A stretch of 20,046 nt of DNA from a virus. The translations under genes and the position numbers were made by a program. Of the stretch, positions 2,182-18,603 are shown one piece after another (position 1 is the stretch's first letter; each line of letters begins with the position of its first letter). The notes under the pieces are model-generated. The model saw only the letters and a list, made by a program, of their open reading frames with translations, had not been told where the DNA came from and searched no databases. The DNA is taken from positions 1-20,046 of the IMG/VR virus record IMGVR_UViG_3300036830_000113; one strand, given 5' to 3'.

Positions 2182-2409
2182 GTGCAAACGGAATCGGCAC
2201 TTTCTGAGGCCGAAATAATCCACCTTTGGCTCCGTCGTAATCGTGGCGTTTGCGCCACAATTGCACGGGATAATAAAGTCTCCCGTGAATTCGTTCGGAA
2301 AATCCTCTACGGTCTTCGGGGCGTAAAATCTCTTGATTGTCGTATTGAACGGGCACTGGCCGACGCGGGCGCTCCCTGTATGTCGGAACGGATGGCGGTG
2401 TCGGTATGA
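2182..2409 (+). CDS. Small helix-turn-helix DNA-binding protein
   Basis: This is a 75-residue protein whose centre (about residues 8-60) reads as a helix-turn-helix: 'AEIIHLWLRR', then 'VCATIARDNKVSREFVRKILYG', then a basic turn and a final 'IERALADAG' helix. The pattern resembles small phage regulators. GTG 2182 is the only start that keeps the full domain. No Shine-Dalgarno precedes it and the predicted transcription start coincides with it, so the mRNA is probably leaderless. Its stop overlaps the replication-initiator start as ATGA. It sits directly behind a palindromic operator, which suggests autoregulation of the replication operon. It could instead act as an accessory initiator. Confidence 0.72.
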   Translation: MQTESALSEAEIIHLWLRRNRGVCATIARDNKVSREFVRKILYGLRGVKSLDCRIERALADAGAPCMSERMAVSV

Positions 2410-3470
2410 AACGAGGTGCCCCAGACCACTGGAAGATGGTGGACCTAGCGAAGCGCCTCCACGTGCCAGACCGTTATGCAATTGCATGGGCAAACGGGGT
2501 ACTTGAAAGGCTTTGGCATTTTACGGCCAACTATGCTCCTCGCGGCGATATAGGAAGAATCCCGGATGAAGCTATCGCCCGCGCATGTTCGTGGCCAGAA
2601 GAAGAATCCTCTGTCCTCATAAAAGCTTTCATTGACGCGCGGTGGGCAGATCCATCCGATGACTACCGAGTAGTAATCCACGACTGGTCCGACCACTGCG
2701 ACGATTCAGTCCACTCCAAGGTAGCCCGACTGAAGCAATGGTTTACCGACGGCAAATCGCCCAAACTGACAGGCCTGCGGAAATACGAAAAAGAGGAACT
2801 GGAGAGGTTTTATTTGGCGGCAACCCCGGTGCAACCCGTTGCAACCCCGGTGCAACCCGTTGCAACCCCGGTGCAACCCGTTGCAACCCCGGTGCAACCC
2901 GTTGCAAATTCGCAAGTTGTTGAAAATAAACAAAGTGACATGCAACCCCAGTGCAACCCCGTTGCAACCCCAGTGCAACCCCAGTGCAACCCATTAGCCA
3001 TAGCCTTTGCCTCTGCCTTAGCCACTGCCACTACCAAACCAAATACACAACACACACGAGCAGAGGAAAGTACAGGTATTGTGGCGAACGGGAACGGAAA
3101 TCCTCCTGTGTGTATTCGGTGGCCGTACTTGGCCGACCCGGACTTTTCACCGTTCGTCGTGGCGGCTCTCGAATACTGGCCGGATTTGATCGAGGAGGAT
3201 TTGCAGAACTCGTGGCACTTCACGTGGAAGAAACTGGACTTCGAGCAACGGGTCGATGTGGTCAAACGGCTACGTGTTCGTATCGAGGCCGGAGAGCCAG
3301 CCCATTTTGTTAAAAGGCCGCCAAAGTATTTGGAGAACGGCGACTGGAAGAGGCCGCCGCGGAAGGCGGTAAATGGCAACGGAAACGGAAATGGCAGAGC
3401 ACTTCCGGATGGCCCGACGAAATCCACGTACCAGCCACTGCCGATTTATAGACCAGGGGAGGACTCATGA
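2406..3470 (+). CDS. Phage replication initiator-like protein with internal iteron array
   Basis: This 354-residue protein has the architecture of phage replisome organisers. The N-terminal part (about 1-110) is globular and winged-helix-like. A low-complexity linker follows with repeated 'ATPVQPV' and a second Gln/Cys/Asn/Pro-rich stretch. Next is a C-terminal globular part (about 235-310, 'PDFSPFVVAALEYWPDLIEEDLQNSWHFTW' in pieces) and a basic Asn/Gly-rich tail. The DNA encoding the linker is an ordered repeat array. Its stop overlaps the DnaB-type helicase start (ATGA), the usual initiator-then-helicase order. The start ATG overlaps the HTH stop. By analogy with lambda O it would bind the repeats and load the helicase. 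No family was recognised with certainty, so the role rests on context and architecture. Confidence 0.65.
   Translation: MKRGAPDHWKMVDLAKRLHVPDRYAIAWANGVLERLWHFTANYAPRGDIGRIPDEAIARACSWPEEESSVLIKAFIDARWADPSDDYRVVIHDWSDHCDDSVHSKVARLKQWFTDGKSPKLTGLRKYEKEELERFYLAATPVQPVATPVQPVATPVQPVATPVQPVANSQVVENKQSDMQPQCNPVATPVQPQCNPLAIAFASALATATTKPNTQHTRAEESTGIVANGNGNPPVCIRWPYLADPDFSPFVVAALEYWPDLIEEDLQNSWHFTWKKLDFEQRVDVVKRLRVRIEAGEPAHFVKRPPKYLENGDWKRPPRKAVNGNGNGNGRALPDGPTKSTYQPLPIYRPGEDS
2820..2992 (+). repeat. Iteron-like tandem array, candidate replication origin
   Basis: Four identical 21-bp units run from 2820 to 2903, each made of two near-copies: GCAACCCCGGT (11) and GCAACCCGTT (10). An AT-rich 38-base gap follows (2904-2941, including TTGTTGAAAATAAACAAAG). 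A second block of 11-bp copies runs from 2942 to 2992 (GCAACCCCAGT or GCAACCCCGTT, the last one partial). The 10/11-base period is about one helical turn. Position inside an initiator gene, beside an AT-rich segment and upstream of a helicase gene, matches the lambda O/ori layout. It also encodes a Pro/Gln linker, so a purely protein-level repeat is possible. Confidence 0.6.
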
Positions 3471-6373: not shown

Positions 6374-7059
6374 CCGAGCGCCCCATCCTCTTTTCCGCTC
6401 CAATGGTCCTCGCCCTGCGCGAGAACCGAAAGACGCAAACCCGTCGCACTCGCGGCCTGGACAAGATCAACGCGGAGCCGGATGCGTGGGAGCTGCTCGG
6501 CGAGGTTAACCAGCAATCAGGACGCGGGAAGTGGTGTTTTGGAAATTCCGCAGAGCCTGACGATGACGCCTCGATTGTCACAATCCGCTGCCCATGCGGC
6601 GTGAGCGGCGACAGGCTTTGGACGCGCGAGAACTGGCGCGCACTGGCCGATTACGACTTTCGCATGCCGCGAGAGTTAGTTGGTGACTGGATTGAGTTCT
6701 TTTATGAGGCGGATGGGCCGCTCACTGCGGAGATTATGCACGGCGAGCCAGGTAAGTTGCGCCCCGGCATGTTCCTTCCCCGCTGGGCCAGCCGCGACAC
6801 GCTGGAGGTTGTGAGCGCACGACCGGAGCGGTTGCAGGCGATCACAAAGGATGATGCGCTTGCCGAGGGAATACAGGTGCTCCCGTTGCAATCATCCGAT
6901 GATCCGAGCGCGTGGTATCAGAGTGCGCCAGGCGTTCATCAGTGCCGCACGGCGGTCGATAGCTTTCGGCAACTCTGGGATTCTCTGAATGGCAAGACTC
7001 TCCCGTGGTCGAAGAATCCTTGGGCCTGGCGCGTGGAGTTTCGGGGGATGACCGCATGA
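6370..7059 (+). CDS. ASCH-domain phage protein
   Basis: A 229-residue protein with the standard phage ASCH-like layout. 'RPILFSAPMVLALRENRKTQTRR' appears at the N-terminus (read in pieces). Then come 'RCPCGVSGDRLWTRENW', 'FYEADGP', 'MFLPRWASRDTLEVV', 'RPERLQAITKDDALAEGI', and a closing 'FRQLWDSLNGK..PWSKNPWAWRVEF'. ASCH domains are RNA- or nucleotide-binding beta barrels related to PUA, and these phage members are common but functionally uncharacterised. GTG 6370 overlaps the upstream stop; the stop overlaps the nuclease gene as ATGA. All conserved blocks are present, so it appears intact. Confidence 0.88.
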   Translation: MTERPILFSAPMVLALRENRKTQTRRTRGLDKINAEPDAWELLGEVNQQSGRGKWCFGNSAEPDDDASIVTIRCPCGVSGDRLWTRENWRALADYDFRMPRELVGDWIEFFYEADGPLTAEIMHGEPGKLRPGMFLPRWASRDTLEVVSARPERLQAITKDDALAEGIQVLPLQSSDDPSAWYQSAPGVHQCRTAVDSFRQLWDSLNGKTLPWSKNPWAWRVEFRGMTA

Positions 7060-7850
7060 GGCGCGAAACCCGCGAAGTAGACGCCGAGCGCGGCATCATT
7101 CAAACGACCACGGAAGATCAACGCTGGTATTCCCGGCGAGTGTCGATCGATGGACCGGGAGTGCGACCGTGGGAGTTCGTTCCTTCGGTGACGTGGATAT
7201 CCAGTTACTACCCGAAGAACGACCGCTTCGTGAAGTGGGTCGGTCGCGTCGGAAACGAACAGGCCGAAGAAGCGAAAGAAGCCGGCGGAGAAAAAGGCTC
7301 CAAGGCCCACCAGGCCATCAAGACAATCCTGAACGGCGGTACGGTCGATATCCAAACCTCCGAGTTCGAGGGCCGCGATGGCGAGATGTCCACGCTGAAC
7401 GCATCCGAAATCGAATGCGTCATGTCGTTCATCGAATGGTTCGAGAAGTATCGGCCCGAGGTTATCGCCTTCGAGTTCACGGTCTGGAGCGAGAGATACC
7501 GATACGCCGGGACGGTGGACTTGTACTGCCTGATCGGCGGCGTGCCGTGGATCGTAGACTTCAAGATCAGCGGCCAGATTTACCCGTCGATGGAGATTCA
7601 AGTCTCCGCGTACAAGTTCGCTGATGCGCGGTTCCCAAAGAACACGCGGCTCGCAATCCTGCAGTTGAATTACAAGCACAACAAAAAACAGAAGTACAAG
7701 TTTACACAGGTGAAAGCGCAGTTCACTCTGTTCCTTTCTGTGCGCCGAACGTGGCAGAAAGAAACAGATGGAATGAAGCCGTACCAGAAGGATTTTCCGC
7801 TGACGCTTTCTCTTGCGCCGGAACTTCTCCCAAAGAAAGAGGCCGCATGA
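7056..7850 (+). CDS. PD-(D/E)XK (RecB/Cas4-like) nuclease
   Basis: A 264-residue protein. The core is 'VIAFEFTVWSERYRYAGTVDLYC' followed by 'VPWIVDFKISGQIYPSMEIQVSAY'. This gives the Glu helix upstream, Asp in 'GTVD' (about residue 153), the 'DFK' acidic-x-Lys (about 168-170) and the 'QVSAY' motif (about 182), the order of RecB-family nucleases used as phage exonucleases. An upstream 'KGSKAHQAIKTIL' helix matches the family's N-terminal His motif (KG..H). No cluster of four cysteines for an iron-sulfur site is seen, unlike Cas4. ATG 7056 overlaps the ASCH stop. It probably makes single-stranded DNA for recombination. No single-strand annealing protein was recognised beside it. Confidence 0.8.
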   Translation: MRRETREVDAERGIIQTTTEDQRWYSRRVSIDGPGVRPWEFVPSVTWISSYYPKNDRFVKWVGRVGNEQAEEAKEAGGEKGSKAHQAIKTILNGGTVDIQTSEFEGRDGEMSTLNASEIECVMSFIEWFEKYRPEVIAFEFTVWSERYRYAGTVDLYCLIGGVPWIVDFKISGQIYPSMEIQVSAYKFADARFPKNTRLAILQLNYKHNKKQKYKFTQVKAQFTLFLSVRRTWQKETDGMKPYQKDFPLTLSLAPELLPKKEAA

Positions 7851-8323
7851 ATATCGAGAACGTAAAAAAGCTGGCACTGTTAGCCGAGGAGTACAGTGTA
7901 ACGGCGGAGCCTTCGTTGTATTGCGACGGGAGGATCATATGCCCCTCCGGAGATATGCCGCTGGAGTCTTGTCGATTCGGACAAAGGGCCACTGAGTTAT
8001 GGAACAAGACTCAGGGTGAGCCCGATTCAGGCGTCACCGTTACACCCGGCGAGATGCGCGGCAGCTTTCCCATTTACGTCCGCTACCTGCACGGAGAAGG
8101 CATCAGAGTAGCAATAAGCGAGCATTTTCGAAGGTGCTTCAATGACAATGCGCGCTTCACGGCAACAGCGAAGCACAAGCAGGTTCTGGCCTACGAAGGC
8201 GATGCGCTCGTCGGAATCATAATGCCCATTAAAACGTGGACCCCACCAGACGTAATCGACGACATTCCGATCATCTCTTTTGTTGATGACGGAGCACTAT
8301 ACCACTATTGCGAGGCCGCATGA
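7847..8323 (+). CDS. Hypothetical protein
   Basis: A 158-residue soluble protein, not recognised. ATG 7847 overlaps the nuclease stop as ATGA, with AAAGAGG upstream as ribosome site. It starts with a helical segment (NVKKLALLAEEYSV), has a 'CDGRIICPSG' strand pair, a central alpha/beta part (FPIYVRYLHGEGIRVAISEHF) and 'HKQVLAYEGDALVGIIMPIK', a beta-hairpin-like motif, before an acidic end. There are no membrane segments or obvious catalytic motifs. Its place behind a recombination nuclease hints at DNA metabolism, but nothing in the sequence proves this. Confidence 0.7.
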   Translation: MNIENVKKLALLAEEYSVTAEPSLYCDGRIICPSGDMPLESCRFGQRATELWNKTQGEPDSGVTVTPGEMRGSFPIYVRYLHGEGIRVAISEHFRRCFNDNARFTATAKHKQVLAYEGDALVGIIMPIKTWTPPDVIDDIPIISFVDDGALYHYCEAA

Positions 8324-8739
8324 TTCCCCTCCGGGAACAAGCAGTACTGACAGCGAATGCGTTAAGAAATGGAGCGGACGAACCGGGAGTTCCGGCGTCG
8401 CTACGGGAACGTCTCCACGAACACGCAGACGATCTGATGAGAGCAGCGTCACTGGAGCCACTGCCTGCGGCGGTTGCGAGCCCGCAACCTTGCGGAGGTA
8501 TGGTTTCGGATGCCGATATGATCGAGTGGATTGATCGTCATGATTGCGCGGAATTGATATTGAAGCCCGACGCAGCGGGAGAATCCGAAGACCGATTTTA
8601 CTTCGGGGCTTTAATGGGAGACTTCGGTTCAGCCGTTTCACTTCGTGAGGTGTTGGCTGATCGCGTACGCGCAGGCAGGACGGTTCCGCAAGGGGAGCGG
8701 CTGCGACCCGCCGCAGGCAAGAGCGAGGTTGCGGGATAA
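8320..8739 (+). CDS. Hypothetical two-part protein carrying two copies of the 32-bp repeat
   Basis: A 139-residue protein, not recognised. The first part (about 1-47) is helical and charged ('LRERLHEHADDLMRAASLEPLPAA'). The second (about 61-122) is acidic alpha/beta ('VSDADMIEWIDRHDCAELILK'). The joint between them and the C-terminal end are each encoded by a copy of the dispersed 32-bp repeat, in opposite orientations (8462-8493 and 8688-8719). The second part therefore looks like a small module bounded by an inverted repeat pair. ATG 8320 overlaps the previous stop (ATGA); the TAA overlaps a following ATG (TAATG, 8737-8741). Confidence 0.65.
   Translation: MIPLREQAVLTANALRNGADEPGVPASLRERLHEHADDLMRAASLEPLPAAVASPQPCGGMVSDADMIEWIDRHDCAELILKPDAAGESEDRFYFGALMGDFGSAVSLREVLADRVRAGRTVPQGERLRPAAGKSEVAG
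8462..8493 (-). repeat. 32-bp dispersed hairpin repeat, copy 1 (reverse)
   Basis: Read on the reverse strand: GCAAGG, arm TTGCG, loop GGCT, arm CGCAA, then CCGCCGCAGGCA. The arms pair perfectly over 5 bases. It lies in frame inside the 8320-8739 gene and encodes 'PAAVASPQPC' on the forward strand. It is inverted relative to copy 2, which ends the same gene. Confidence 0.8.
8688..8719 (+). repeat. 32-bp dispersed hairpin repeat, copy 2 (forward)
   Basis: GCAAGG, arm GGAGC, loop GGCT, arm GCGAC, then CCGCCGCAGGCA. The arms give G-C, tandem G.A/A.G, G-C, C-G. It encodes 'QGERLRPAAGK' at the C-terminus of the 8320-8739 gene and forms an inverted pair with copy 1. Confidence 0.8.
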
Positions 8740-9314
8740 TGATCTTGTCGGGGCTTCGCGTTCACTGTTCCATTTCCGGTGTCCACGAGGTTGCTACCCG
8801 TGCAGGCTGGTCACGGCCCGACAGGGACCAGCCAAACTTTTCTGTTGCATTCAGCACAAAGCAGGTTTATCATTCAGGCGTGGGCGTAGCAGCCTGCGAT
8901 AAATGGGAACGTTCCGAAAAGTCAACCGATCCGATTCATCAGGAAAACATCCTCTCGCTACTGCTACGCCTATCGGACAGTCAGGCGCAGCCGTCGAAAG
9001 GGACGCAAGGGAACAACGGGTCTAACAGCCCGCTTGCGGGCGGCATTAAGTCAAGAGCCGTCCGTAGCCACTTGTCGTTAGCGTTGGGGGAGTTCGTCAG
9101 GTGTAACTCCAGATCCCCCAGAAGAGGAAACGGGCAGGTACGGCCAAAGATCGAACGTACCCGCCGAAGCGAAGCGCGCGGCTCCAAACTTCGAACTCGA
9201 ATCGACGCGAAACCGAGCGGAAGTCAGGTTTCGTGCGCCTCTCTCTCGCACTCACCACCTGCGAATAGAAAGAATAAAAAGTTTCCGCTGAATCCAAAAT
9301 GCAACCGCCAGTAG
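8739..9314 (+). CDS. Doubtful ORF across the structured region
   Basis: An open frame of 191 codons starts at ATG 8739, overlapping the previous stop as TAATG, a spacing used for coupled translation in this operon. The product resembles nothing known. It is rich in Ser, Arg, Pro and Asn, lacks a clear hydrophobic core in its second half, and its last 80 residues look like translated non-coding DNA. The same DNA contains seven strong stem-loops. Either a fast-evolving protein or, more likely in my view, a chance frame through an RNA-structured segment. Only the first 50 codons look somewhat protein-like. Confidence 0.3.
   Translation: MILSGLRVHCSISGVHEVATRAGWSRPDRDQPNFSVAFSTKQVYHSGVGVAACDKWERSEKSTDPIHQENILSLLLRLSDSQAQPSKGTQGNNGSNSPLAGGIKSRAVRSHLSLALGEFVRCNSRSPRRGNGQVRPKIERTRRSEARGSKLRTRIDAKPSGSQVSCASLSHSPPANRKNKKFPLNPKCNRQ
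8784..9235 (+). ncRNA. Candidate large structured RNA (seven strong stem-loops)
   Basis: Stem-loops in order follow. 8784-8802: CACG-A-GG with CC-CGTG. 8805-8833: GGCTGGTC with GACCAGCC, perfect 8 bp, 13-base loop. 8883-8892 with 8961-8970: GGCGTAGCAG with CTGCTACGCC, perfect 10 bp, closing 68 bases that include an AGGA/TCCT hairpin. 9028-9041: GCCCG-CTTG-CGGGC. 9085-9120: TGGGGG with CCCCCA plus inner AGTT/AACT. 9133-9165: GGCAGGTACG with CGTACCCGCC, 10 bp with one mismatch. 9206-9235: CGCGAAACC with GGTTTCGTG, 9 bp with one G.U. No U-tract terminator or own promoter is evident. It matches no RNA family I can name. It sits between two operon segments and upstream of the SNF2 helicase gene, so it could be a free RNA or a long 5' leader. 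Confidence 0.45.
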
Positions 9315-9397
9315 CTCTTATGACGGAGGGGTCTGAAGTAAGAAATGGACTGGCTGTTGCATCCAGCGGGAAAAATCATGGATTTAAGAAAGGCCGC

Positions 9398-10801
9398 ATG
9401 AGAACCGCCGAATACGCAGAGTTTCTGAACCACAAAACACAGTACAGCGGCGACAGCGGATTCAAGCCTGTCTTTATGCCGGATTGCATGTTCGACTTTC
9501 AGAAACGACTTACGGAAGAGAACTGCCGTGCCGGAAGGTTTGCGGACCTCACTGATTGCGGGACCGGGAAAAGCCTGCTGGAATTGGTGTACGCCCAGAA
9601 TATCGTCGAGACAACAAACGGGCGGGTTCTCCTGATGACACCGAACGCGGTATCGGCCCAGACGGTAGCGGAGGGCGAGAAATTCGGCATTGAGTGTGCG
9701 CGGTCCAAAGGTGGCAACCTGGCAGCGGCGAAAATCATCGTCAGCAACTACGAACAGTTGAGCCACTTCGACCCAAATGATTTTGTGGCCTTCGTGGGCG
9801 ATGAATGTAGCATCCTGAAGAACGCGCAAGGCGTGACGCGCAACAAGGTGACGGAGTTTATCCGGCACATGCGGTATCGCCTGATGGCAACGGCGACCCC
9901 TGCACCCAACGATTTCTTCGAGCTGGGAACATTGAGCGAGGCCCTCGGTTATCTGGGCCACATGGACATGCTGAATCGTTTCTTCAAGAACGATCTAAAC
10001 AATTCCGCATCAGGACGCATGCACGGCAAGATTATCGAGTGGCGATTCAAAGGACACGCGGAGGAGCCCTTCTACCGATACATCTGTTCATGGGCGCGAG
10101 CGGCCCGTAAACCATCGGACCTTGGATTCGATGACATGGTGGATGCGGACGGGCGGAAGCGTCCATTCGTTCTCCCACCACTCGAAGAGATCGAGCACAT
10201 CGTGGAGTCCGACAATCTTCGTGAGGGTATGCTGTTCGCTACGCCAGCGTTCGGGATGCGCGAGCAGCGCGAGGAGCGGCGCGTTTCGCTTGTGGAGCGT
10301 TGCCGAAAGGTGGTTGAGTTGGTTCAACCGCATCCGTCCTCAATCTGCTGGTACACGCTGAATCCTGAAGGGGATTTACTGGCAAGGACCGTTCCTGATT
10401 GCGTCCACGTCAGCGGCCGGGATTCCGACGAAGAGAAAGAAGAGAAGTTCGCGGGGTTCGTGGCGGGACATTTTAAGCGGCTGGTCATCAACGACAAAAT
10501 CGGGGCATTCGGCTTAAACTTTCAACACTGCGCACATCAAACCGGATGGCCCGATCATTCATTCGAACGCTATTACCAGAAAGTGCGGCGGTCCCTCCGC
10601 TTCGGGCAGCTCGCCGAGAAAGTCACCATCGACATGGTTATGACGGAAGGTGACCGCGCAGTAATGAACAACATGAAGCGTAAGGCGAACCAGGCCGTGG
10701 AGATGTTTGCAAAAATGATCGAACGAATGAACGAGGCGCTCGGAATTGAGCGCGGCCAGAAGTTCACCCAAACGGAGGAGGTTCCAGCGTGGCTACAGTA
10801 A
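9398..10801 (+). CDS. SNF2-type DEAD-like helicase
   Basis: A 467-residue superfamily 2 ATPase of the phage SNF2 type. Walker A is 'DCGTGKS' (about residues 53-59) and Walker B 'GDECSILKN' (about 134). Motif III is 'MATATPAPNDFFELGTL' (about 163), with the long phage insertion after it. The C-terminal RecA domain has 'KRLVINDKIGAFGLNFQ' and motif VI 'YYQKVRRSLRFGQ' (about 391-403). ATG 9398 is preferred over the upstream in-frame ATG at 9299. It has GAAAGG nearby and begins the conserved part, whereas the extension lacks helicase features. The usual partner, a beta-class methyltransferase, follows after an inserted HNH gene. It could act in DNA translocation for replication, recombination or modification. 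Confidence 0.88.
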   Translation: MRTAEYAEFLNHKTQYSGDSGFKPVFMPDCMFDFQKRLTEENCRAGRFADLTDCGTGKSLLELVYAQNIVETTNGRVLLMTPNAVSAQTVAEGEKFGIECARSKGGNLAAAKIIVSNYEQLSHFDPNDFVAFVGDECSILKNAQGVTRNKVTEFIRHMRYRLMATATPAPNDFFELGTLSEALGYLGHMDMLNRFFKNDLNNSASGRMHGKIIEWRFKGHAEEPFYRYICSWARAARKPSDLGFDDMVDADGRKRPFVLPPLEEIEHIVESDNLREGMLFATPAFGMREQREERRVSLVERCRKVVELVQPHPSSICWYTLNPEGDLLARTVPDCVHVSGRDSDEEKEEKFAGFVAGHFKRLVINDKIGAFGLNFQHCAHQTGWPDHSFERYYQKVRRSLRFGQLAEKVTIDMVMTEGDRAVMNNMKRKANQAVEMFAKMIERMNEALGIERGQKFTQTEEVPAWLQ

Positions 10802-11361
10802 ATTTCAACTGCCAGCACTGCGGAATATCTGTATCGACCTACAGAAGCCCCAGCCAATTAATTGTGCAACCGCCCAGGTTCTGCTCGCTTAAATGCCTCG
10901 GCGCACACCAGCGCGGCGCAGCGAACCCCGCGTTCACTGGAGGTCGTCACAAACTCTCAAACGGCTACATGGTCGTGTTAATGCCTGATCACCCCAATGC
11001 AGATCCACGGGGGTACGTATACGAGCATAGGCTCGTTATGGAGCGAATGACTGGTCATCCCATCCCACTGCGGGCGGTGGTTCACCATAAAAATGGGATT
11101 AAAGACGACAACGATCCCTTGAATCTGGAACTCCACGTTACCCACGGGGATCATATGCGGGAGCACCACCAGCACAAGGGAAATTTAGCGGCCCCGAAAG
11201 GCGAGAACCACGGCATGGCCAAGATGACCTCGCAGGCGGTAGCGCTACTTCGAGCCAAGTATTCTGCTGGAGAAAAGCAATCAGCGCTCGCTGGGCTGTT
11301 TTCTATCAGTAGATCGCAAGTTAACAATATTGTTCACGGGAGACAGTGGAATGGTAATTGA
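10789..11361 (+). CDS. HNH homing endonuclease
   Basis: A 190-residue protein in three parts. The N-terminus has a zinc finger ('CQHC'...'CSLKC'). The middle (about 75-125) is an HNH_3-type domain: 'YVYEHRLVMERMTG', 'AVVHHKNGIKDDNDPLNLEL' and 'GDHMREHH', with His-His, Asn and His in the expected order. The C-terminus is a DNA-binding helix-turn-helix typical of homing enzymes ('SAGEKQSALAGLFSISRSQVNNIVHGRQW' in pieces). GTG 10789 overlaps the helicase end by 13 bases. The stop overlaps the methyltransferase. It is free-standing; no intron or intein is seen in either flanking gene. It appears intact and has inserted between two genes that usually travel together. Confidence 0.9.
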   Translation: MATVNFNCQHCGISVSTYRSPSQLIVQPPRFCSLKCLGAHQRGAANPAFTGGRHKLSNGYMVVLMPDHPNADPRGYVYEHRLVMERMTGHPIPLRAVVHHKNGIKDDNDPLNLELHVTHGDHMREHHQHKGNLAAPKGENHGMAKMTSQAVALLRAKYSAGEKQSALAGLFSISRSQVNNIVHGRQWNGN

Positions 11362-12370: not shown

Positions 12371-12849
12371 CGCTCCGCGCAATGGGGCATGACAAAAGCC
12401 ACGCGAACGCAGGCGGCCAAGTAGCCGTTGCGGTAAGCCTCAGAGGGCGCGAGGGAGGCGGAACAGCGGAACTTGGCGGAGAGCAATCCGGTGCTTTGCG
12501 TGCTGGCGGCGGCGGCGGCGGCGATAAGGCCCACGTTCTCGCGCAGACATTGACAGCCGATATGTACCGGAGTGGGGGTGCGACAGCGGGGAATAACCCC
12601 GGCATGCGCAACTGCTTTCCTTCTGAATCGGCGGTGCGGCGCCTGACACCGCGAGAGTGCGAGCGGCTACAGGGATTTCCTGACGATTACACGCAGGTTC
12701 CATATCGCGGCAAGCCAGCAGCGGACGGGCCACGATACAAAGCGCTTGGGAATTCGATGGCCGTGCCCGTGATGGAATACATCGGATCGCGGATCAATGC
12801 GCTGGAGCTGGAGCAAGGCCAGCAGGCGGACACCGCAGGCAAAGAATGA
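12367..12849 (+). CDS. C-terminal fragment of a cytosine-C5 DNA methyltransferase
   Basis: A 160-residue ORF holding only the C-terminal end of a Dcm-type enzyme. After a glycine-rich start like a target-recognition region ('AVSLRGREGGGTAELGG') come 'VRRLTPRECERLQGFPDDYTQVP' and 'RYKALGNSMAVPVMEYIG', motifs IX and X. The AdoMet-binding FxGxG, the catalytic Pro-Cys and the ENV motif are absent. It cannot methylate alone; it could complement an N-terminal half encoded elsewhere, or be a remnant. ATG 12367 overlaps the beta-class enzyme's stop (ATGA). A (GGC)6 run (12505-12522) encodes six glycines. Its 3' end carries a degenerate copy of the dispersed repeat (12813-12841). Confidence 0.82.
   Translation: MTLRAMGHDKSHANAGGQVAVAVSLRGREGGGTAELGGEQSGALRAGGGGGGDKAHVLAQTLTADMYRSGGATAGNNPGMRNCFPSESAVRRLTPRECERLQGFPDDYTQVPYRGKPAADGPRYKALGNSMAVPVMEYIGSRINALELEQGQQADTAGKE
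12813..12841 (+). repeat. Degenerate 29-bp copy of the dispersed hairpin repeat (forward)
   Basis: GCAAGG, CCAGC, then AGGCGGACA and CCGCAGGCA: the ends of the 32-bp repeat are kept but 3 bases are missing and the GGCT loop is altered. It encodes 'QGQQADTAGK' at the C-terminus of the C5-methyltransferase fragment, the same gene position as copies 2 and 4. A very weak possible partner lies near 12409-12433. Confidence 0.5.
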
Positions 12850-13343
12850 CAGAAACCGAATATCAGGAACTCTGCCAACGCGCAGGCGCAATCGCCGAAG
12901 CATCATCGACTCGTACATGCACACCAAAGCGAACGATTCGCCCCGTGCCTGTTTCCGGCCCATTGTCAGTACGTCTGACACTGCATGGGCATTGCCCGTC
13001 AAAGAAGAATTTGTGGCAAAGGGGAGTATCCGGGAAGATGTTCCTGGACTCCTCAGTAAAGCGGCAAATTGACGACCTCACAATGCAGGCCATGTTTCAC
13101 TGGCGAGATTCAGGGCCAGTCGAGCACCCGGAGTTAACAGTACGATTCTTCGTGCATCACGCAAGACGAGATCGAGACGGCATGTTCACGACACTACTGG
13201 ACTGCTTACAGGCGGCTGGAGTGCTAGTTAACGACAATTTAGCCAACAACAACGGGCGAACGATTCTGGAGCCTGCGGAGTTCGTTTCCGAAGCAGAGGA
13301 GAGAGTAGAAATTCTGGTGGTAAAGGAACTATCCCATGTCTGA
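12846..13343 (+). CDS. rusA: RusA-type Holliday junction resolvase
   Basis: A 165-residue protein. RusA is a dimeric metal-dependent endonuclease that resolves recombination junctions. The family start 'GHCPSKKNLWQRG' is at about residue 48. 'VRFFVHHARRDRDGMFTTLLDCLQAAGVLVND' (read in pieces; Asp residues near 108, 110 and 118) carries the catalytic acidic cluster, in the 'RDRDG' rather than 'DxDN' variant seen in many phages. It closes with 'EERVEILV'. ATG 12846 overlaps the upstream stop (ATGA). It lies at the end of the helicase-methyltransferase operon and fits with the PD-(D/E)XK nuclease and Ref-like protein in recombination-dependent replication. Confidence 0.85.
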   Translation: MTETEYQELCQRAGAIAEASSTRTCTPKRTIRPVPVSGPLSVRLTLHGHCPSKKNLWQRGVSGKMFLDSSVKRQIDDLTMQAMFHWRDSGPVEHPELTVRFFVHHARRDRDGMFTTLLDCLQAAGVLVNDNLANNNGRTILEPAEFVSEAEERVEILVVKELSHV

Positions 13344-13404
13344 TCTTATGGCCTTGGTGTTGTGGGTTCGGATTTATCAAAGTAAACGGAAAAGAAGGAT
13401 TTGA
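13336..13404 (+). CDS. Possible 22-residue micropeptide
   Basis: ATG 13336 overlaps the RusA end by 8 bases and has AAAGGA 8 bases upstream, a good ribosome site. The peptide is MSDLMALVLWVRIYQSKRKRRI: a short hydrophobic stretch followed by a very basic tail, which could insert in a membrane or bind nucleic acid. No homologue can be judged at this length. It may be a leader peptide that keeps ribosomes on the mRNA until the next ORF. Confidence 0.35.
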   Translation: MSDLMALVLWVRIYQSKRKRRI

Positions 13405-13406
13405 AG

Positions 13407-13463
13407 ATGCCTGCGGCGGCCATCAGCCGATGGCCTTGCGAAGAAGGAAAAACAGTTGAATAA
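13407..13463 (+). CDS. Possible 18-residue micropeptide overlapping a repeat copy
   Basis: ATG 13407 has AAGGA 7 bases upstream, a near-ideal ribosome site. The peptide MPAAAISRWPCEEGKTVE is encoded largely by copy 3 of the dispersed repeat, in the same frame in which copy 1 encodes 'PAAVASPQPC'. It overlaps the DUF3310 start by 8 bases. It may be a coupling leader ORF, or simply a by-product of the repeat. Confidence 0.3.
   Translation: MPAAAISRWPCEEGKTVE
13408..13439 (-). repeat. 32-bp dispersed hairpin repeat, copy 3 (reverse)
   Basis: Read on the reverse strand: GCAAGG, arm CCATC, loop GGCT, arm GATGG, then CCGCCGCAGGCA. The arms pair perfectly over 5 bases and differ completely from those of copy 1 while the rest is identical. 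It lies 16 bases before the DUF3310 start and is inverted relative to copy 4 at that gene's end. Confidence 0.8.
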
Positions 13464-13713
13464 ATCTCCCAAGGCCGCTGAGGCGGTCAATCATCCGGCC
13501 CACTACACGAACGGAGGTATCGAAGTCATCGACGCCATAGATGCGTGGGGATTGGGATTCTGCGACGGCAATGCAGTGAAGTACATCGCGCGGGCGGGAA
13601 AGAAAGATCCGACGAAAACTGTTGAGGATTTACAAAAGGCGCGCTGGTATCTGGACCGCCTGATTTCTCAATTGCAAGGCGAGCGGCTGCGAGACGCCGC
13701 AGGCAAAGGCTGA
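13456..13713 (+). CDS. DUF3310 family protein
   Basis: An 85-residue protein with the whole DUF3310 pattern: 'AVNHPAHYTNGGIEVIDAIDAWGLGFCDGNAVKYIARAGKKD' (in pieces) and 'DLQKARWYLDRLI'. The family is widespread in phages; its exact function is not settled, though a nucleotide-metabolism role has been suggested. TTG 13456 has GAAGGA 7 bases upstream and gives a full-length protein. The gene is framed by two inverted copies of the 32-bp repeat: one just before the start, one encoding the C-terminal 'QGERLRDAAGK'. Confidence 0.9.
   Translation: MNKSPKAAEAVNHPAHYTNGGIEVIDAIDAWGLGFCDGNAVKYIARAGKKDPTKTVEDLQKARWYLDRLISQLQGERLRDAAGKG
13674..13705 (+). repeat. 32-bp dispersed hairpin repeat, copy 4 (forward)
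   Basis: GCAAGG, arm CGAGC, loop GGCT, arm GCGAG, then ACGCCGCAGGCA. The arms give C-G, tandem G.A/A.G, G-C, C-G. Compared with copy 2 the outer pair is swapped from G-C to C-G, so pairing is kept. It encodes the last residues of the DUF3310 protein. Confidence 0.8.
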
Positions 13714-13720
13714 TTCTGAA

Positions 13721-14047
13721 GTGAGCATCTCCACATGCAAGCACTGTAAGGGAGCGTTCTGGCGCTACCGCTCCGACCACCCGCCGAAGGGGTACTGCTC
13801 CGTCCCACATGCCGAACTCGGACCAGCGAAGAAAGTTCTGAATCCGCCCCCCCTGAAACCCGATGCGGTTTTGTTTGAATACCGCGCCCACCGGATTAGC
13901 ATTCATCGGGACCAATTCTATCTTCAGGACTACGACTGCGAGGAATGCGAAAGGATCTGGGGAGTCTACATAGAGTCGATGTCATTCTGGCTTGATCATC
14001 CATTGAATTATGGCGGCACGGAAAAGACTGCCAGTCCATTTTCCTGA
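13721..14047 (+). CDS. Hypothetical zinc-finger-like protein
   Basis: A 108-residue protein, not recognised. The N-terminus reads 'CKHCKGAFWRYRSDHPPKGYCS': a C-x2-C pair plus Cys/His residues, like the treble-clef zinc fingers seen on many small phage proteins. A second possible pair, 'DCEEC', lies near residue 78. There are no membrane segments. GTG 13721 starts 7 bases after the DUF3310 stop, with only a weak ribosome site (TCTGAA), so coupling is likely. Confidence 0.6.
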   Translation: MSISTCKHCKGAFWRYRSDHPPKGYCSVPHAELGPAKKVLNPPPLKPDAVLFEYRAHRISIHRDQFYLQDYDCEECERIWGVYIESMSFWLDHPLNYGGTEKTASPFS

Positions 14048-14417
14048 TATTCTGTTTCTGTTAGCAAATTCACACAAGGAGGTCGTTCCGCCGCCGATTT
14101 CAGAACAGAGCACGCGGCCCCAGGGGGAAACAACCGGGGCCGCACAACTTCCCGGAGCCACCACTGAAATGGATATCGACGACTACGGCACCGCAATCAT
14201 GAAGGCCGCACGCGATCTTCTCGCCGACAGCCCGGAACTCAGTAAACTGTGCGGCGCCGCCGCACGAGAGCATGGAATTCTGGTTACCGTGGAAGTGGAC
14301 GTAAACGTAATATTCGCGACGATGGATGAGCCATCCACAGACGAAGCGGTGGACACTCAGAAACTGACGGATCGGGACAAATCATTCCTGAAGGCACTCC
14401 GAATCAGTGACGAGTAA
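14010..14417 (+). CDS. Hypothetical acidic protein
   Basis: A 135-residue ORF, not recognised. The C-terminal part (from 14168) looks well-formed: 'DDYGTAIMKAARDLLADSPELSKL', 'AAREHGILVTVEVDVNVIF' and an acidic end, with a helix followed by a beta strand. The N-terminal 52 residues are Pro/Thr/Gly rich and overlap the previous gene by 38 bases. ATG 14168 may be the true start instead (82 residues, GGAG about 10 bases upstream). A strong AAGGAGGT site (14076-14083) has no ATG or GTG at proper distance. A GC-rich hairpin lies at 14114-14143. Confidence 0.5.
   Translation: MAARKRLPVHFPDILFLLANSHKEVVPPPISEQSTRPQGETTGAAQLPGATTEMDIDDYGTAIMKAARDLLADSPELSKLCGAAAREHGILVTVEVDVNVIFATMDEPSTDEAVDTQKLTDRDKSFLKALRISDE
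14114..14143. repeat. GC-rich inverted repeat
   Basis: GCGGCCCC (14114-14121) pairs perfectly with GGGGCCGC (14136-14143) around a 14-base purine-rich loop. No T-run follows, so it is not a standard terminator. It lies 30 bases after a consensus-quality Shine-Dalgarno and before ATG 14168, where it could influence translation. Confidence 0.6.
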
Positions 14418-15861: not shown

Positions 15862-15888
15862 ATTCAATCTCACCACGATGAACAATGG

Positions 15889-15926
15889 GGCCGACTCCGC
15901 TTTGTCACGGATCGGCCTCTTTGTTT
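15889..15926 (+). terminator. Intrinsic terminator
   Basis: GGCCGA (15889-15894) and TCCG (15896-15899) pair with CGGA (15908-15911) and TCGGCC (15912-15917), leaving one bulged C and an 8-base loop. The tail TCTTTGTTT follows. It ends the 14445-15861 unit just before a new promoter. Confidence 0.85.
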
Positions 15927-15929
15927 CGT

Positions 15930-15935
15930 TACAAT
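15930..15935 (+). promoter_or_regulatory. -10 box for the beta-helix gene
   Basis: TACAAT, identical to the -10 box before 14445, lies 7 bases before the ATG at 15943, so the transcript would be leaderless. No good -35 box is seen at 16-18 bases; TTGTCA (15902-15907) is 22 bases away, inside the terminator loop. Confidence 0.45.
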
Positions 15936-15942
15936 AGTTAGG

Positions 15943-18603
15943 ATGCGTACATATCGAGTTGTGGCATTTCTGTTGTGCCTGCTGGCGCGATCCGGGGATG
16001 CGCAGGCGGTGCGATTCGATCAGGTGTCGTCCACGACGAGCGCCCAGTGTGTTTCAGGGCGGCAGTGCCCGATTTTAGCCCTTCCCGGTACGCAGGTGAA
16101 CTTCTGCGGCGGAACCGTCACCACGCTGTCCACGTGCCTCGCAGCGCCAGCCACGACCTATACAGACGCAGGAGCGGGGACGCCATGCGCGACAACCTCG
16201 CAACTGACTCCGCAGACGGGCGGGGCCTGCCTCGCAACGGCCGACGCCCAGGGAGGATATGGGGCGTGGCTTCTGCCGGGATCGTACAATTACTTCCTCC
16301 GGGTCCCGACTACGGCGGGGGGGGGGACGTATGGGCCGTATCCGATATCGGTCGGATCAAGCGCGGGATGCCCGGAAGACGCAGCCTGTGATGCGAACTT
16401 TTTGACGCTCGCGGCGGCCTGCACCGCAGCGGGGTCGGCAACGCTTTACGTAACACGCAACTGGAATGCTCTGGTGACGGCAACCTACACGTGCGCCATG
16501 ACGTTTCTGGGGCCAGGGAGATTAAAGCCCGCCTCGGGGCAGACCGTTACTCTCACAGGATCGCTGTCTGCCGGCCTGTCTCAGATTTTCGACACGTCTG
16601 CTGGTGGCGTTGTGTTGCCGTATAACGTTCCGATCCTGTATCCGCAATGGTGGGGTGACATCCCGAATAACACTAACACCGATCACAGTACGGCGATTCA
16701 AGCGATGGTGGATGCGGCCCATGCGATGGGGGGAGGGACGATGTACTTCACCAGCTCCAACGGCTGCCACATGGCGCAAAACGTCACGTACTATTCCAAC
16801 GAGACGTTCGACGGCGACAAGACGGCCTGCGTGAAGAAGCCTGGGGCGAACCCTGGAGGAATCTTTCAGATATTCACGAGTGCCAACGGCAGCGGAGTAA
16901 GCGGAGCCCAGCCACTCACTAATGTCCACTTTCGGAATTTCACCATCGACGGCAACCAGGCGAATCAAGGCGGACTCGCCACGGACCAAAACGGACTGTA
17001 CGGTATCTTCATGGCGGGCTGCTCGAATTGCTCGATCGAAGGCATGACGATCCAGAACAACTATACAGATGGCATCGAAACGAGTGGATACGGAATCAGG
17101 GTACTGACTGGCACAGCAGACACTTCAGTTAACACAGTAAATGTCTCCGGGGTCACGTGGATTGGAGGGATCGCGACGTATACAACAGATGCACACGGTC
17201 TTGTAACCGGCGCTCCAGTAATCGTCGCAAGCGTGAACCCTACCGGGTACAACTTTACTTCTGGCTCTCCCTGTTTTGTGTTCGTTGTCAGCACGACAAC
17301 GTTTACCTGCTCAATAGCGATGAATCCCGGAGCCTACGTCAGCGGCGGCACAGTGACCAGTTACGCGGTGACCAGCATCAGCGGAACGGGACTGCAAAAT
17401 CTGGCAGACGGCGCAACACTCACGATCTCCTCCGTCGCTTATGCGGTAAACGCCTATGTCAGCGCCACGAGCGTGTTCCTGAGCACGGCGACGAGTCCCG
17501 GAAATCAATCTGGCGCGGCGATCTCTACGAACGCTTATATTGGCGTCGGGAATAACCTGCTCATCCAGAACAACCTGATCACGCAGAACCGGCGCAATAA
17601 CATTAGCGTCGTAGGTGGACCTAATACGCGAATTATCGGCAACCACCTATCATATGCCGGTCTGACCGACTGCTCTGGAGTCTCCCCAATGGCAGGGGTC
17701 GACCGGGAACCATTCTTCTATGGCGCATATCTGAACGGATACCAGTCCATTGGAAACGAGATCGATCACAATTGTGGAAACGGGGAAGACCTTTATGCTG
17801 AAATTACATTTGACCCCGCTGACAGTCCGATCCTGTCCGACTATGTACACGACAACGTAGGCATTGGCTCATTTAACGCAAACTTTGAGGCCAGCACGGG
17901 AATTCTTAAAGTAGGCGGCACAATGATGAACAACGGTGGCGTGGCGGGGATCACGATGTCAGGATGGACCAGTCCGGTTATCGACGCCGTTTCCATCGGC
18001 TCGGCACGCGGCATTTTACTTTCAGCAAATATCGTCAACGCGCAATTCGGAGCGGGGGCGTCGATGAACGGCAACACCTACGATATCTCTCTCGATGGAC
18101 CGCACGCCAATGCGTACCTGAGCACGCCGGATAACCTGGCGCACCTTGGAGTGCAGGCGGGGGAAGAGGGGTCAGTGCAGAAAAATATGCTCGGCAGCCC
18201 CATCTCTTGGGGGTCAAGTTGCATCCCAATCTGGCTCGGTACGTCCGGCACTACTGGACGAATACCGGCTATGAGTTGCTTCGGGCAGATTTACTCCGTA
18301 GGCGGCTCTGGTGCAAGCACTAGTCCGGGTATCGGCGTGACAGATGGAACGAACATCGGGAAGCTACAGTACTCCGCCAATGCTGGAGCGGTTCTGGTTG
18401 GCTCTCAAAATGGTATTGGAGTCTGCCTGTTCGCGGACAATCAAACCGGATCTGGCATCTGTATTGATGACAGTGGCACCAAATTTCAGGTGTTCGGGAT
18501 TCAGGACTTCGCCAACAACGCGGCGGCGGTAGCGGGCGGCTTGACTCAGCGGGGCATGATGTATCGCATCACCGGGGCTGACACGATGGGAGTCGTTCAC
18601 TAA
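15943..18603 (+). CDS. Exported right-handed beta-helix protein (tail-spike/pectate-lyase-like)
   Basis: An 886-residue protein. Residues 1-23 form a signal peptide (MRTYRVVAFLLCLLARSGDAQA). A Cys-containing beta domain follows (about 30-145). From about 225 comes the tail-spike signature: 'ILYPQWWGDIPNN', 'DHSTAIQAMVDAAHAMGGGTMYF', and many turn repeats of parallel beta helix ('FRNFTIDGN', 'CSIEGMTIQNN', 'NLLIQNNLI', 'TRIIGNHLSY'). A Gly/Thr-rich domain (about 400-455, 'GGIATYTTDAHGLVTG') interrupts the helix. The last 140 residues form a separate Gly/Ser-rich end. Such proteins bind or cut surface polysaccharide. The signal peptide is odd for a virion protein. A tract of ten G (16317-16326) lies near codon 126. 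Confidence 0.85.
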   Translation: MRTYRVVAFLLCLLARSGDAQAVRFDQVSSTTSAQCVSGRQCPILALPGTQVNFCGGTVTTLSTCLAAPATTYTDAGAGTPCATTSQLTPQTGGACLATADAQGGYGAWLLPGSYNYFLRVPTTAGGGTYGPYPISVGSSAGCPEDAACDANFLTLAAACTAAGSATLYVTRNWNALVTATYTCAMTFLGPGRLKPASGQTVTLTGSLSAGLSQIFDTSAGGVVLPYNVPILYPQWWGDIPNNTNTDHSTAIQAMVDAAHAMGGGTMYFTSSNGCHMAQNVTYYSNETFDGDKTACVKKPGANPGGIFQIFTSANGSGVSGAQPLTNVHFRNFTIDGNQANQGGLATDQNGLYGIFMAGCSNCSIEGMTIQNNYTDGIETSGYGIRVLTGTADTSVNTVNVSGVTWIGGIATYTTDAHGLVTGAPVIVASVNPTGYNFTSGSPCFVFVVSTTTFTCSIAMNPGAYVSGGTVTSYAVTSISGTGLQNLADGATLTISSVAYAVNAYVSATSVFLSTATSPGNQSGAAISTNAYIGVGNNLLIQNNLITQNRRNNISVVGGPNTRIIGNHLSYAGLTDCSGVSPMAGVDREPFFYGAYLNGYQSIGNEIDHNCGNGEDLYAEITFDPADSPILSDYVHDNVGIGSFNANFEASTGILKVGGTMMNNGGVAGITMSGWTSPVIDAVSIGSARGILLSANIVNAQFGAGASMNGNTYDISLDGPHANAYLSTPDNLAHLGVQAGEEGSVQKNMLGSPISWGSSCIPIWLGTSGTTGRIPAMSCFGQIYSVGGSGASTSPGIGVTDGTNIGKLQYSANAGAVLVGSQNGIGVCLFADNQTGSGICIDDSGTKFQVFGIQDFANNAAAVAGGLTQRGMMYRITGADTMGVVH

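Follow-up and report, generated by a model that had tools for sequence, protein, structure and literature searches.

A noncoding stretch with local hairpins upstream of a phage helicase gene is probably an untranslated leader

Phage genomes have few intergenic gaps, and regulatory hairpins are kept in them. The described systems closest to the locus studied here are the large structured RNAs GOLLD, ROOL and OLE, for which extensive covariation is documented (PMC12286853), and the early region of T7, in which RNase III processing of the polycistronic early mRNA is established (PMC4858673). In this study, we performed a computational analysis of a window of 20,046 nt (IMG/VR virus record IMGVR_UViG_3300036830_000113, positions 1-20,046), in which a preliminary description had placed a new large structured RNA at 8784-9235. 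The region proved to be noncoding and some of its local hairpins were borne out, but one large ornate RNA was not supported. On balance, the whole stretch 8740-9397 is probably a lineage-specific untranslated intergenic leader whose local hairpins may act in processing, at a boundary or in translation control, and not one large folded RNA.

The + strand carries nearly all genes of the window, which encode a replication protein, a DnaB-like helicase, an exonuclease (phrog_298), a second helicase (phrog_62), an HNH endonuclease, a DNA methylase and others. The last gene of the block preceding the reported region is an ORF at 8308-8739 (+ strand) without known relatives; the peptide-word search found none for it or for the neighboring gene 7005-7850. 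The gene that follows, at 9398-10801 (+ strand), encodes a DNA helicase that matched phrog_62 (E 4e-33) and, weakly, ResIII. No match for it was found in GTDB genomes; related helicases were found at 31 loci, the nearest of which (L002) is 73% identical. Between the helicase and methylase genes sits an HNH endonuclease gene (10789-11361), which is absent in L002 and looks like a homing-type insertion because the helicase and methylase genes adjoin directly there.

Several repeats were also observed in the window. Tandem repeats of 21 nt (GCAACCCCGGTGCAACCCGTT) at 2820-2995, within the replication protein gene (2406-3470), encode ATPVQPV repeats and are potential hairpins as well. A dispersed repeat of 33 nt, CGCAAGG.GAGCGGCTGCGA..CGCCGCAGGCAA, has copies at 8687-8720 and 13674-13706, inverted copies at 8462-8496 and 13408-13440, and a short copy at 12833. 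Its best two copies are 91% alike, and its + copies lie at the 3' ends of ORFs, encoding GERLR.AAGK tails. CCGCAGGC is found 8 times, where 1.2 occurrences would be expected, and is absent from L002-L004. In addition, a 21-nt inverted repeat, ACAGAAACCGAATATCAGGAA, flanks genes 12846-14047, its two arms (12849-12869 and 14041-14061) being 95% complementary and 1.2 kb apart. The stretch 2124-2405, between well-supported genes upstream of the replication gene, holds top-ranked local folds (2141-2240, z -4.5). The reported region itself contained no CRISPR-like or tandem repeats.

The only open frame across the region (8739-9314, + strand, 191 codons) had been described as poorly protein-like, and our composition measures agree. 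Its period-3 chi2/kb, a statistic independent of genetic code, frame and strand, was 4.6, compared with 34-262 in twenty comparison genes and about 10 in shuffles; its base composition by codon position was flat and under the shuffle mean, and its codon log-odds were 0.001 versus 0.08-0.33 in genes. When the frame was divided into segments of 160-210 nt, none showed period-3 clearly over the chance level. The wider stretch 8740-9298 likewise gave no period-3 signal, with codon log-odds near zero or negative in all frames. Searches of Pfam, PHROGs, phage and plasmid collections and IMG/VR, among them tblastn and peptide-word searches, revealed no protein relatives of the frame. Because of the flat periodicity, the codon log-odds and the lack of protein relatives, 8740-9298 is taken as noncoding.

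The helicase ORF could start as early as 9299. Among helicase relatives with readable N-termini, nearly all begin a few residues before a conserved YxxFL motif, and in many cases an in-frame stop lies a short distance upstream of that start. In the window this corresponds to ATG 9398, with AAGAAAGG ahead of it at 9386-9393, which reads as a Shine-Dalgarno-like sequence. Since the helicase start is set at 9398 from the relatives, the gap extends from 8740 to 9397 (+ strand, 658 nt), a noncoding intergenic spacer or untranslated helicase leader. The boundaries 8784-9235 given earlier thus lie inside a noncoding gap but are too narrow, and the strongest hairpin falls outside them.

That hairpin, at 9282-9372 on the + strand, stood out when both strands of the whole window were scanned for local folds in steps of 72 and 98 nt window length. 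The segment 9276-9373 ranked first among 98-nt windows (z -5.7) and 8876-8973 third (z -4.6), although these values overstate significance because they are scan maxima. Further peaks lay between genes or at gene edges (about 2141-2300 and 15866-15978), and some were intragenic (1436, 12956). The hairpin 9282-9372 consists of an outer 9-bp stem, a core with arms 9299-9312 and 9349-9362 (13 of 14 positions paired) and an inner stem. No ungapped stem in the window with a loop of up to 60 scores better than its core, which shares first place, and the core stem score was reached in 0.25% of gap shuffles. It ends 25 nt upstream of ATG 9398; a stable hairpin thus stands in untranslated sequence a short way ahead of a start codon. 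The second strong fold, a 98-nt rod at 8878-8975 (+ strand, z -4.5), is closed by the perfect 10-bp long-range stem noted previously (8883-8892 with 8961-8970, 68 nt apart), which reaches 13 bp when G.U and flanking pairs are counted. The analysis supports the conclusion that some local hairpins, namely these two, are beyond chance.

The stretch 8740-9397 separates the preceding gene block from the helicase-(HNH)-methylase genes of a phage. We suggest that it would be transcribed on the + strand, either within a polycistronic mRNA or at the 5' end of the helicase mRNA as its leader. Its hairpins, chiefly 9282-9372 and 8878-8975, may serve as local elements for mRNA processing (RNase III-like), stabilization, transcription boundaries or translation control; by position and shape the two rods resemble the intergenic processing and control hairpins of phage mRNAs, and they would be transcribed and act in a similar way. 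Several observations are in favor of this reading. First, the region is noncoding by periodicity and codon scores, and the helicase start at 9398 has its own Shine-Dalgarno-like sequence. Second, the strongest or near-strongest local fold in the window stands directly upstream of that start, and other intergenic stretches (about 2141-2300 and 15866-15960) also carry top-ranked hairpins. Third, 8740-9397 shows no conservation as a separate RNA, and RNase III processing has its precedent in the T7 early mRNA (PMC4858673).

The helicase relatives offer further support. In four distant ones (L020, L022, L023, and L024), predicted folds judged by eye showed a strong hairpin, then six or seven T, before the helicase start, and these terminator-like hairpins suggest that a transcription-unit boundary may precede the helicase in part of the family. 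They are located before 332 in L020, just before 3856 in L022, before 3995 in L023 and before 2083 in L024; those of L022 and L024 were not reported by a simple terminator scan, which takes short loops only. All four lie only about 5-12 nt from the start codon of the helicase, so that a ribosome-binding site would have little space, and attenuation or a leaderless start is possible for this arrangement.

Some points speak against an untranslated leader. Neither a promoter-like site nor a terminator-like site on the + strand came out of a search of 8200-9600, and an intrinsic terminator on the + strand was rejected, as a simple scan of this interval showed no G+C-rich hairpin with a T run. Unlike the terminator-like hairpins of the relatives, 9282-9372 has no run of T after it on the + strand. 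Only on the - strand is the hairpin followed by a T-rich tract, CTTTTTATTCTTTC, and it would therefore look terminator-like only for leftward transcription. Most helicase relatives have no notable feature at the corresponding place, and 658 nt is long for a leader. Moreover, the + strand ensemble is more defined than that of most shuffles, which a mere spacer need not be.

Alternatively, the stretch may be functionless, either a decayed gene or an inserted foreign spacer of recent acquisition in which hairpins arose by chance; we consider this rather unlikely. The absence of relatives at any level is what this explanation would predict. Nothing like 8740-9397 was found at any of the 31 helicase relatives or in 19 whole relative records, and in L002, from which the region is absent, only about 145-157 nt separate the end of the preceding gene from the corresponding start of the helicase. 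A blastn search of the region in phages and plasmids gave nothing beyond chance; exact 18-mers in IMG/VR gave a single match (L033), an 18-base coincidence within an unrelated ORF; and the strict test of an exact 25-mer in GTDB genomes gave no match. An open frame without coding signal and the neighboring HNH insertion, which indicates that the locus takes up inserts, are in agreement as well. However, a recent pseudogene would be expected to retain periodicity in the 160-210-nt segments, of which there is no residue, and 9282-9372 is hard to obtain by chance, given the rarity of its stem score in gap shuffles.

A new large structured phage RNA on the + strand, an independent molecule running from about 8745 to 9240 or 9372, seems unlikely. 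It is favored by the 658-nt noncoding gap, the two strong local rods and the overall fold. Against dinucleotide shuffles, 8784-9235 scored z -2.1 on the + strand and -2.0 on the - strand, and 8740-9298 (559 nt) scored -2.4 and -1.9, its + fold being matched by 1 of 100 shuffles. The excess over shuffled controls is modest, about 2 SD and nearly equal on both strands. Two measures of relative stability disagree. When 88 windows of 452 nt were regressed on G+C, the region reached only z -0.7 (rank 21 of 88 on the + strand, 11 on the -), and the most stable 452-nt stretch at equal G+C began at 8363 and is mostly coding; in a separate test with 25 shuffles per segment, the region was the lowest of 30 (z -2.9), with the mainly coding segment 7481 at -2.7. 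The only strand-specific sign of structure was a hint from ensemble diversity, which was low on the + strand, where just 2 of 40 shuffles fell below it, and not on the - strand (24 of 40).

The individual stems named in the preliminary description are all present where it had placed them. Apart from the rod, the + strand carries a perfect 8-bp hairpin with a loop of 13 (8805-8833, z -2.4), two weak neighboring stem-loops (9005-9063, z -1.8), a stem-loop GGGGGAG...CTCC...CCCCC with two alternative pairings (9085-9120, z -1.4), a hairpin of GGCAGGTACG and CGTACCCGCC with one mismatch (3+6 bp) and a loop of 13 (about 9133-9165, z -2.4), and a 9-bp hairpin with one G.U, a perfect core CGAAACC / GGTTTCG and a loop of 12 (9206-9235, z -2.6). 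Perfect hairpins with loops of 10-13 bases were also confirmed. Their density, said to be far above that of coding DNA, was not: we counted 4 perfect, non-overlapping hairpins whose arms reach 6 bp or more, shuffles gave 1.5-2.0 (P 0.05-0.12), and the same number is attained by 11% of window stretches of this size.

The Rfam covariance search, which had been proposed as a check on a large ornate RNA, gave no match of that kind. At gathering score there was no credible match in the window, and over 8600-9450 neither GOLLD, ROOL or OLE nor anything else credible appeared at E up to 10; a tRNA or tmRNA reading of the region was considered and rejected. Single-sequence covariance models of three sub-elements, which are low-power models, were run against 27 sources and, besides recovering the window, gave one weak match, in L030 (E 0.17). 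No homologue was found, hence no covariation, and the region is absent even from the nearest helicase relative. As neither a model match nor a homologue was found and the fold excess is modest and alike on both strands, an RNA like GOLLD, ROOL or OLE is unsupported.

A variant of this proposal, a singleton RNA of several structured domains (8745-9000, 9000-9065, 9085-9240 and the rod 9282-9372), either independent or acting in cis as a helicase leader, is in our opinion quite improbable. Least credible is an orphan protein gene at 8739-9314 coupled to the upstream gene, to which we give very little weight: the frame overlaps the upstream stop (TAATG), spans the reported region with 191 codons and is stop-free over a length (at least 180 codons in any of six frames) that 2.3% of dinucleotide shuffles reach (P 0.023), but the gene was rejected on its flat periodicity, and its position-specific base composition, codon log-odds and lack of relatives in every collection searched are against it too.

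An independent large RNA would be a new class where very few are known, whereas a leader only would be ordinary. The practical gain of the present analysis is that the helicase start is corrected to 9398 and that the hairpin 9282-9372 is better defined than the structure originally reported.

Compared with known systems, the locus shares with GOLLD, ROOL and OLE a large noncoding stretch with several stems on a virus contig; it differs from them in having no covariance-model match or conserved family, only a modest fold excess and mostly simple hairpins. The hairpins of the four distant helicase relatives are unrelated in sequence to those of the window and have the T run that the window lacks on the + strand; as in the window, each is a strong hairpin just upstream of a homologous helicase start. 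The RNase III sites of the T7 early region show no sequence relation either, and the window hairpins are known from predicted folds; in both cases, however, strong imperfect rods of about 60-100 nt lie between co-directional genes and near the downstream start codon.
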